DNA of 64,000 bases, taken from positions 124,001 through 188,000 of the forward strand of contig NZ_SORF01000004.1 of the NCBI RefSeq assembly GCF_004366795.1. Direction: 5' to 3'. A program made the translations under genes and the position numbers. The DNA comes from Alicyclobacillus sacchari. Its GTDB lineage: Bacteria; Bacillota; Bacilli; Alicyclobacillales; Alicyclobacillaceae. Shown here one piece after another: positions 44,729 to 46,605 of this stretch; position 1 is the stretch's first letter, and every line of letters starts with the position of its first letter. The notes below the pieces were generated by a model, which saw only the letters and a program-made list of their open reading frames with translations, ran no database searches and was not told the DNA's origin.

Positions 44729-44767
44729 AAAAAACTGGCCGCTCCACCTGAAAAGATGGAACGGCCA
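44729..44767 (-). terminator. Terminator after the five-repeat protein gene
   Basis: Minus-strand stem TGGCCGTTCCA against TGGAGCGGCCA, then GTTTTTTTACG. 35 bases after the stop. Confidence 0.85.
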
Positions 44768-44802
44768 CTGTTCACACTCTTGTAACCGATGTGGGGCTTG
44801 AA

Positions 44803-45474
44803 TTATTGATAGTAGCCAAGATCTTGCGCGATGTGCTGACGGACGACTTGCGGATTCGTGCCGAATTGTCCGAAAGTGCCCACAGCCCCCTGCGCAGCCG
44901 GATAGTTGGCACCGTGGAAGGCGCCTGCTTGTTGACTTGTCATGACACCGACTTGATTGTGCAAATCTTGTTGGATGTGCTGTTGAACCATCTGTGGGTT
45001 GGAGCCAAACTGGCCAAGTGTGCTATGCGCAGCCGGATGCTGAGCATAACCGTAGCCAAACGATTGGCTATGGATCTGTGCGGGAACACTTTGCATCACC
45101 TGATGCGTCACGCCCATAGGTTGCGCTTGATTCATGGTGCCGTAACCATAACCGTGCAAATCTTGTTGGATGTGCTGGCGGACCATCTGCGGGTTGCTGC
45201 CAAATTGGCTCAGTGTGCTGCCCGTCGGCGCTTGCGGAGCATATCCGTAAGACGGTTGTGCGTACCCGAGATCCTGCGCGATATGTTGTTGCACGATCTG
45301 CGGATTGGTAGCCCCGGCATGCATAGGCGAAGACGCGTAGGAATAGCCCGGATGCAAATCTTGTTGAATGTGGCTTTGCACCTCTTGCGGATGCGTGCCG
45401 AATTGGCGCAGTGTGTTAAACCCTTGCCCCATAACGTTGTTCTGGCCTGCGCCAAACGATTGGTTCATGTGCAT
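44803..45474 (-). CDS. Repeat protein with five NPQxVxxHIxQDL motifs, unknown function
   Basis: About 223 residues, rich in Gln, Gly, His, Tyr and Pro. Five copies of a unit of about 22 residues occur: LRQFGTHPQEVQSHIQQDL, GATNPQIVQQHIAQDL, LSQFGSNPQMVRQHIQQDL, LGQFGSNPQMVQQHIQQDL and FGQFGTNPQVVRQHIAQDL. Gly/Tyr-rich linkers of 15-45 residues lie between (GYGYGTMNQAQPMG and similar). No signal peptide or membrane segment. The pattern recalls spore-coat or self-assembling proteins, but this is only composition. Monocistronic with its own terminator. Start ATG 45474 or 45468. Confidence 0.75.
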   Translation of the reverse strand: MHMNQSFGAGQNNVMGQGFNTLRQFGTHPQEVQSHIQQDLHPGYSYASSPMHAGATNPQIVQQHIAQDLGYAQPSYGYAPQAPTGSTLSQFGSNPQMVRQHIQQDLHGYGYGTMNQAQPMGVTHQVMQSVPAQIHSQSFGYGYAQHPAAHSTLGQFGSNPQMVQQHIQQDLHNQVGVMTSQQAGAFHGANYPAAQGAVGTFGQFGTNPQVVRQHIAQDLGYYQ

Positions 45475-45567
45475 GCCAAACGTCAACTCCCTTTTTGGTT
45501 GATGGGTGCTTCGGGTAAAGTATGCGCGAGTGCCATTACAACCATGCAAACCTCACAGATCGCAGAA

Positions 45568-45595
45568 AAACAAAAAGCTCGCCCGAGGGCGAGCT
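45568..45595 (-). terminator. Terminator after trxB
   Basis: Minus-strand stem AGCTCGCCC against GGGCGAGCT with a two-base loop core, followed by TTTTTGTTTTTC. Strong intrinsic terminator. Confidence 0.85.
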
Positions 45596-45610
45596 CACAG
45601 GTCGTATGTG

Positions 45611-46570
45611 TTATACATTCAGTGTAACCGACCAGTCTTCCACAGCCTGGCCTTCCAAGAATTTTTCAGCGTCCATCGCTGCTTTACAGCCGGATCCAGC
45701 CGCCGTAATGGCTTGCCGATAACGAGAATCCATCACATCCCCGCACGCGAACACGCCGGCGACAGACGTTTCCGATGTATTCCCCTTCGTCACAACGTAA
45801 CCCACCGCATCCAGTTCCAACTGACCACCGAGAAACTCGGTATTCGGCCTGTGCCCAATGGCGACAAAAACGCCGTCGGCTTCAAGTTGTTTACGCTCTC
45901 CCGTCTCGTTGTCCACGACTTCTAAGCCGGTTACTTTGTTGCCGTCGGAGAGAACCTTGTCTGACGTCGCGTTCATCACAAAACGAATTTTTTTGTTCGC
46001 CCGAGCGCGTTCCTGCATCACTTTGGATGCCCGCAACTCATTGCGCCTGTGGACAATGGTAACCTCCGAAGCGAATTTCGTCAGGAACGTCGCCTCTTCC
46101 ATCGCTGAATCGCCGCCGCCCACGACGATCACGCGTTTGTTTCGGAAGAAGAATCCATCGCACGTCGCGCAAGTTGACACGCCACGGCCAATCAGCTCGC
46201 TCTCTCCCTCGATACCCAGCATCTTCGCCGACGCACCCGTGGCGATAATCAACGCGTCAGCCGTATAGACGCGCTCCTTATCAACGGTGATGGTAAAAGG
46301 CCGCTTCGACAAATCGACGGAGGTCGCTTTACCGCGCGCAAAGACAGCACCGAACTTTTCAGCCTGTTTCTTCATTGACTCCATCAATTCAGGTCCCATG
46401 ACGCCATCGGCGAACCCCGGGAAATTTTCCACTTCTGTCGTCAACGTCAACTGGCCACCCGGCTCTTCACCTTCAAAAACGAGCGGCTCCAAGTTCGCTC
46501 GTGCGGTATAAATCGCCGCAGTATACCCAGCCGGGCCCGTGCCCAGGATGATCAGTTTGCGATGTTCCAT
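45611..46570 (-). CDS. trxB: Thioredoxin-disulfide reductase
   Basis: NADPH-dependent flavoenzyme of 319 residues that reduces thioredoxin. FAD motif LIILGTGPAGYTAAIY, redox-active cysteines in STCATCDGFF, NADPH motif VVGGGDSAMEEA, and C-terminal VAGVFACGDVMDSRYRQAITAAGSG. ATG at 46570 eight bases after GGAGG. A thioredoxin-like protein is encoded about 2 kb upstream on the same strand. Confidence 0.96.
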   Translation of the reverse strand: MEHRKLIILGTGPAGYTAAIYTARANLEPLVFEGEEPGGQLTLTTEVENFPGFADGVMGPELMESMKKQAEKFGAVFARGKATSVDLSKRPFTITVDKERVYTADALIIATGASAKMLGIEGESELIGRGVSTCATCDGFFFRNKRVIVVGGGDSAMEEATFLTKFASEVTIVHRRNELRASKVMQERARANKKIRFVMNATSDKVLSDGNKVTGLEVVDNETGERKQLEADGVFVAIGHRPNTEFLGGQLELDAVGYVVTKGNTSETSVAGVFACGDVMDSRYRQAITAAGSGCKAAMDAEKFLEGQAVEDWSVTLNV

Positions 46571-46605
46571 ATACCACGCCTCCACTCGTTTTCTGTCATC
46601 CTATG

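Follow-up and report, generated by a model that had tools for sequence, protein, structure and literature searches.

In our judgement, the repeat gene analysed here encodes a divergent, expanded relative of the gamma-type SASP (SspE). Its promoter is of forespore type, and the lineage is one on record as having no sspE. Our best explanation, which we hold to be probable though far from secure, is that it specifies a forespore-expressed, mostly disordered storage repeat protein of the spore core that is evolutionarily related to SspE. Because the protease site of SspE is absent and the family cut-offs are missed, we treat the protein as a variant related to gamma-SASP, short of a proven member. 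An earlier note on this DNA could place the repeat in no known family. That view needs revision: the units are profile-similar to those of gamma-type SASP, and long-form proteins that share the unit core exist elsewhere in the class.

The gene lies on the minus strand of the window, by which we mean the whole stretch of 64,000 nucleotides that was analysed (Table 1). Five clear repeat units, as described in the earlier note, are present in its open reading frame, each spanning 25-28 residues by the unit profile. To these we add a degenerate sixth, seen by eye and missed by the profile, which by position matches fuller units in three relatives (L014, L017 and L060; also by eye). The unit core is F-G-T-N-P-Q-x-V-R-x-H-I-x-Q-D-L. 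The previously given FGxN/HPQ start needs a small correction, in that unit 2 reads HAGATNPQ. The protein is rich in Gln and Gly (Q18 G12 A9 H7 S7, with 5% Tyr) and contains no Lys, Cys or Trp. An AlphaFold model of it (seven-sequence alignment) has a mean pLDDT of 37 and places a helix inside each of the five units, which agrees, at very low confidence, with the short helix per unit predicted before. Low pLDDT is as expected for a chain that may be largely disordered, but alone proves nothing.

The gene's own ribosome site and terminator, both claimed previously, were recovered as a Shine-Dalgarno-like AAGGGAG that ends 12 nt ahead of the start codon and a terminator-like hairpin of 14 pairs with a T-rich tail after the gene. 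A second such hairpin follows the upstream gene, and the repeat gene sits between the two. Three terminator-like sites were found, versus a mean of 1.1 in shuffles. The upstream neighbour, presumably trxB (thioredoxin reductase), is the next gene upstream in each of the 15 searched genomes of the genus, as well as in two genomes of another genus (G025, G035). Ten relatives outside the genus have no neighbour gene common to all of them, as judged by eye; by eye, too, two of the family loci (L024 and L026) possibly share an upstream neighbour. A 278-aa open frame runs antisense across the entire repeat gene (window 44791-45627, plus strand); it shows no sign of use and is probably a by-product of codon bias.

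Table 1. The repeat gene, its units and signals in the window, and related loci in other genomes
Feature	Position	Strand	Basis or remark
CDS of the gamma-SASP-like repeat protein (223 aa)	44803..45474	-	ATG 45474, stop 44803-44805
Unit 1, residues 18-45, GFNTLRQFGTHPQEVQSHIQQDLHPGYS	45340..45423	-	unit profile
Unit 2, residues 48-74, SSPMHAGATNPQIVQQHIAQDLGYAQP	45253..45333	-	unit profile
Unit 3, residues 85-111, GSTLSQFGSNPQMVRQHIQQDLHGYGY	45142..45222	-	unit profile
Degenerate sixth unit, residues 121-137, GVTHQVMQSVPAQIHSQ	45064..45114	-	by eye; missed by unit profile
Unit 4, residues 150-176, HSTLGQFGSNPQMVQQHIQQDLHNQVG	44947..45027	-	unit profile
Unit 5, residues 199-223, GTFGQFGTNPQVVRQHIAQDLGYYQ	44806..44880	-	unit profile
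Candidate sigma-G-type promoter, GCATG (45547-45543), N18, CATACTT (45524-45518)	45518..45547	-	motif match
Shine-Dalgarno-like AAGGGAG, ending 12 nt 5' of ATG	45487..45493	-	sequence
Terminator-like hairpin 3' of repeat gene, 14 pairs, T-rich tail	44736..44767	-	
Terminator-like hairpin after upstream trxB-like gene	45575..45596	-	
Neighbour, trxB-like gene	45611..46585	-	immediately upstream of repeat gene
Long-form repeat proteins, units AGTNPQQVRQDIAQEGGF	L049, L052, L055, L057, L059, L062, L064, L066, L069-L071		
Paralogue pair	G016:C1:3109418-3110497 and C1:5742286-5742678		
Paralogue pair	G284:C1:994186-995157 and C1:3933823-3934194		

The repeat gene is real and constrained, and its units are under near-total constraint. 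The genome is that of an Alicyclobacillus, and the nearest named relatives, those of A. tengchongensis and A. hesperidum, share 94% of residues at the protein level. Against an orthologue of the same identity (L002; 94%), we count 87 synonymous and 14 nonsynonymous changes. This gives a dN/dS of 0.022 overall, 0.002 in the units (one nonsynonymous change in 115 codons) and 0.049 in the linkers (13 in 108). The gene is the sole copy in its own genome at E<=0.001. A protein search at the same threshold found relatives, with varying unit number, in 26 of 61 genomes, its own included. A relative is present in each of the 15 searched genomes of the genus, and the protein search matched none of the 18 genomes from the next family of the order. 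For profile searches, 129 units were reduced to 74 by removing near-identical and short ones, and divided into a profile of query-type units without intermediates (A1, 57 units) and a profile of intermediate units (A2, 17 units). Of the 41 genomes in the own family, profile A2 matches 32 at E<=0.1, with a weak match in G017, and leaves nine without a match at that threshold. By profile, the unit count runs from three (one of them weak; e.g. L008) up to eight (L041), and other genera have short forms of some 80-130 aa. In one genus, G016 and G284 each hold two family paralogues, one in a long frame of 394 or 353 aa, the other in a shorter frame of 180 or 197 aa. A search at E<=0.001 of 299 genomes from across the phylum, some of the same class, returned the own genome and one odd match, a 662-aa frame. 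Searching plasmids yielded one irrelevant Burkholderia match for the query and no match for the long forms.

It is possible, if on the whole unlikely, that the protein, while of the same superfamily and made in the forespore, is not a store. Its helical units would instead bind a partner, whether DNA or another SASP, or else the inner membrane or core matrix, and it would act as a core scaffold or protectant. Constraint that falls almost wholly on the units exceeds the apparent need of a pure store, and the variable unit number and the helix per unit in the low-confidence model speak for this as well. However, the query passes no curated cut-off for any domain in Pfam or NCBIfam, and the units of canonical gamma-SASP are conserved too, even though a role as an amino-acid reservoir is only hypothesised for that protein in PMC8452069.

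The case for kinship with SspE begins with the units. In profile-profile comparison, A1 scores 19.6 (E 3e-5) against canonical gamma-SASP units, and none of 200 column permutations scores as high (maximum 11.3); for A2 the score is 26.8, likewise reached by none of 200. The gamma-type unit T-N-A-Q-Q-V-R-x-Q-N-Q-Q-S aligns in register with the query unit as T-N-(P/A)-Q-x-V-R-x-x-(I/N)-Q-Q; the canonical and long-form units were chosen by core patterns, which fixed their register, and that of the query was free. The 56 canonical units in the comparison include two spurious pattern matches, one each from L084 and L098. Searched against 28 canonical proteins, A2 beats all 100 of the protein's own shuffles in 26 (median 10.4 bits, versus -2.6 for shuffles) and A1 in 17 (median 6.6). 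Two further loci with wrongly picked frames (L090, L097) are absent from this test and contributed no units to the profile-profile comparison.

Several proteins bridge the two groups. When PF04259 was run on the 61 genomes, it matched a member of the query family in G018 (E 2.7e-4), an intermediate that the query itself matches at E 8e-8. This relative passes the Pfam cut-off (32.5 bits vs 28.4) and stays below that of NCBIfam TIGR01442 (21.9 bits vs 30.65). PF04259 matches in G031, G016, G034 and G007 (E 0.0017 to 0.38) are non-significant or nearly so. Conversely, A2 picks up a canonical sspE locus in each of two genomes, G146 (E 0.0013) and G118 (E 0.0018). The query has no match to PF04259 or TIGR01442 at E<=10, and its own genome has none to PF04259 at E<=1. 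Thus the match to a known domain that the earlier note would have taken as contrary evidence is there for an intermediate and not for the query.

It could be argued that the resemblance is convergent, and that the query is an unrelated low-complexity, Gln-rich repeat protein that is SspE-like by composition. The unit is short and its composition biased, Gln-rich repeats raise the risk, single-unit scores against SspE are modest, and A1 fails the own-shuffle test in 11 of the 28 canonical proteins. But the 200 column permutations keep composition and never reach the observed score, median scores for shuffled and reversed sequences are negative, and the bridging proteins and a common promoter type speak against it as well. 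We consider convergence distinctly unlikely.

A relative of SspE it may be, but an unusual one. Gamma-type SASP are small and basic, and a TEFASE site for GPR before the core is a defining feature. SspE (L075) has 85 aa, three units and a pI of 9.4, whereas the query has 223 aa, five units and a pI of 6.6; two intermediates, of 85 and 117 aa, have a pI of about 10. Query and SspE share a Gln-rich composition, the unit T-N-x-Q-x-V-R-x-x-x-Q-Q in register and a promoter motif of sigma-G type. Unlike SspE, the query has Pro before Gln and His-Ile after Arg within the unit, a near-neutral pI, neither TEFASE nor Lys, and scores below the family cut-offs. Neither the query nor any intermediate that was read contains TEFASE, which is also missing before the first unit in many, though not all, canonical proteins. 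Peptides of B. subtilis gamma-SASP carry both TEFASE and AQQVR motifs, according to PMC3003637. The neighbourhoods differ too: a trxB-like gene stands at the query locus, whereas N-termini that we take to be FabL-like stand beside two canonical sspE loci. Synteny with sspE (fabL) was considered and none was seen.

On the best reading of the sequences, the closest kin outside the family would be the long-form proteins of other Bacilli, with units AGTNPQQVRQDIAQEGGF, and canonical SspE would branch off further away. Across 250 genomes of the class, presumably Bacilli, A2 also finds long arrays, with units of type FAGTNPQQVRQDIAQEGGF. A1 scores 43.5 against long-form units (0 of 100 permutations as high), so query-type units are nearer to these than to canonical gamma units (19.6). 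The query and the long forms have in common the unit core, long arrays and sigma-G-type promoters; they differ in the unit tail, which is D-I-A-Q-E-G-G-F in the long forms versus H-I-x-Q-D-L in the query. One genome of another family, G143, has an Alicyclobacillus-type array (L060). In some genomes, long forms stand beside a separate sspE: six carry an A2 match and, at a different place, a canonical sspE over the Pfam cut-off, the long form having been read in three (G177, G221, G244) and located by coordinates only in the others (G130, G135, G216). Since the two are separate in these six genomes, the query may descend from a long form rather than from sspE. Their coexistence, together with the closeness of the long forms, is also why we refrain from naming it an orthologue of sspE. 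The two long forms scanned against the domain models, L049 and L070, have no SASP_gamma match over cut-off (L049 reaches 17.7 of 30.65 bits for TIGR01442). L070 does exceed the cut-off of PF06971, which models a putative DNA-binding N-terminus (34.3 of 27 bits); none of its stretches is significant alone, and the score is probably summed over repeats. A repeat protein of 254-255 aa was also observed in another genus of the family (L037, G032:C22:10118-10333, and G230:C38:18257-18478). It is over the PF04259 cut-off in G032 and just under it in G230, and its units, read in L037 only, are like YASNTGVQQVLQADHQATDRR. This protein could be one more offshoot, or else the likeness could be due to chance.

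The second line of evidence is the promoter, which by its motif appears to be of forespore sigma-G type and is strongly kept; sigma-F would look the same. GCATG-N18-CATACTT is positioned 43 nt upstream of the ATG, and GCATG-N18-CATACT occurs once in the 2.9-Mb genome, as does a backward control pattern. We scored upstream regions against GHATR-N17/18-CATNHTA, which we take to be the sigma-G consensus of the B. subtilis literature. The set comprised 29 regions, from 28 loci of the family and from L060, with starts fixed by peptide. At least 10 of 11 positions are matched in 25 of them, compared with 55 of 2900 dinucleotide shuffles, many of the 29 being from close relatives and hence not independent. 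The regions below 10 are L004, L024 and L041 (score 9) and L040 (score 8), two of which belong to bridging intermediates. Among 48 genes of the window, the repeat gene alone scores at least 10. The motif is kept in genera with very different proteins (L014, L017, L018, L021, L025, L060), and B. subtilis-type sspE (L075) scores 11. Alpha/beta-SASP genes of the genus score at least 10 in 16 of 18 cases; 19 loci, part of the matches in the genus, were taken, and one (L108) had no usable start. Their -10 is mostly CACAATA- or CACACTA-like, not CATACT.

This promoter strengthens the sporulation link that the earlier note had drawn for a repeat protein with its own signals. A candidate sporulation promoter does lie upstream, though its motif is of sigma-G type and not SigK/SigE, and the self-assembling or spore-surface protein suggested at the time is not supported. 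It is the mother cell that makes coat proteins, with sigma-E or sigma-K in control. With a promoter motif of sigma-G type, like those of the alpha/beta-SASP genes of the genus, a coat or surface location becomes very unlikely. To be sure, a Gly/Tyr/Gln/His-rich, Lys-free composition with 5% Tyr recalls some coat proteins, and the window's CATACTTTA also fits a sigma-K -10. In a rougher scan of the family, in which some starts are wrong and L009, L081 and L096 are left out, sigma-E (z 6.6) and sigma-K (z 4.1) both exceed shuffles, below sigma-G (z 16.2). Yet the terminal TA of the sigma-K -10 is not kept in relatives (e.g. L005, L007, L012) while the sigma-G pattern is kept across genera, and for these reasons, and in view of the lower z values, control by sigma-E or sigma-K is unlikely. 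In the same scan, sigma-G is the one pattern that rises above shuffles in the long-form group and in the canonical group (z 11.2 for the long-form group of 15 regions, L060, L065, L067 and L072 included). The profile link of the units to core SASP likewise argues against the coat. Helical adaptor repeats, of the STI1/HOP DP-type or another, hardly merit consideration: PF17830 is the query's best sub-threshold Pfam match (21.3 bits vs a cut-off of 29.1) and recurs in L060 (22.0 bits), but it spans just 24 residues, and the best long forms and intermediates have no such match. DevC and most other Pfam and NCBIfam matches were judged to be low-complexity noise.

If the protein is indeed a storage protein of the core, its course is likely to be as follows. 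Sigma-G, whose motif is in place, would turn the gene on late in the forespore. The Gln/Gly/Ala-rich chain, with a short helix predicted in each unit, would then be packed into the core, and by analogy with gamma-SASP it would be degraded at germination, supplying amino acids. In the Alicyclobacillus lineage, the unit would have been multiplied and altered, from NxQxVRxxNQQS to NPQxVRxHIxQDL, and in the query lysine and the TEFASE protease site are missing.

Alicyclobacillus, which belongs to the acid-loving spore formers, is a spoiler of fruit juice with very resistant spores, and Vyas et al. in 2011 reportedly found no gamma-type SASP in spores of A. acidocaldarius. The literature counts gamma-type SASP among the three major SASPs in spores of B. 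subtilis (PMC3533761, PMC3003637). It describes SspE as present in most bacilli but in none of the clostridial genomes available at that time (PMC3533761), and, citing Vyas et al. 2011, sspE as missing in Alicyclobacillus and in Kyrpidia, where its absence serves as a taxonomic character (PMC3236038). Among the open-licence papers listed for gamma-type SASP with Alicyclobacillus or Paenibacillus, or for acid-soluble spore proteins of Alicyclobacillus (10 of 1,017 in one listing), titles and abstracts contain no description of the present family. If its members are real forespore proteins, the reported absence of sspE would partly be a detection limit, and the gamma-SASP family would exceed its models in size and variability. 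The genus Alicyclobacillus would then offer a natural test of what matters in a gamma-SASP: the unit, the protease site, charge or amino-acid mass.

We finally consider the alpha/beta-type SASP (PF00269), whose conserved EIA marks the GPR cut, as stated in PMC8452069. This GPR-cleaved segment is resembled by long-form units (score 19.2 against KYEIASEFGV, 0 of 100 permutations as high) and not by query-type units, for which 28 of 200 permutations score as high; for the intermediates, 14 of 200 do, and both results are non-significant. The query is not matched by PF00269 at E<=10. On the 28-of-200 result, a GPR-like reading of HIAQDLG, present in two of the five query units, was rejected. L065 scores above the threshold of PF00269 (30.4 of 22 bits), and none of its stretches is significant alone. 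This protein, L067 and L072 were seen to mix gamma-like and alpha/beta-like features: they begin like SspE, and their units read REEIAQESGF or REEIAEESGF. We offer as speculation, which we regard as unlikely, that the gamma-type SASP of Alicyclobacillus is not missing but has been replaced or masked by an expanded, Lys-free array without the usual protease site. A bolder version would have one ancestral short unit behind both major SASP classes, to which long-form units would point by their likeness to the gamma repeat as well as to the alpha/beta segment cut by GPR.

All 40 genomes of the 250 in the class with an A2 match at E<=0.001, a phylogenetically clustered set, also carry alpha/beta-SASP (compared by eye), as do 179 of the 250 overall. 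The own genome has five PF00269 matches and the germination protease GPR. One of its PF00269-matching genes, the small L108 (G000:C5:202039-202176), lies upstream of the gpr gene (L140, G000:C5:200764-201492) on the same strand, with about 550 bases between the matched parts.
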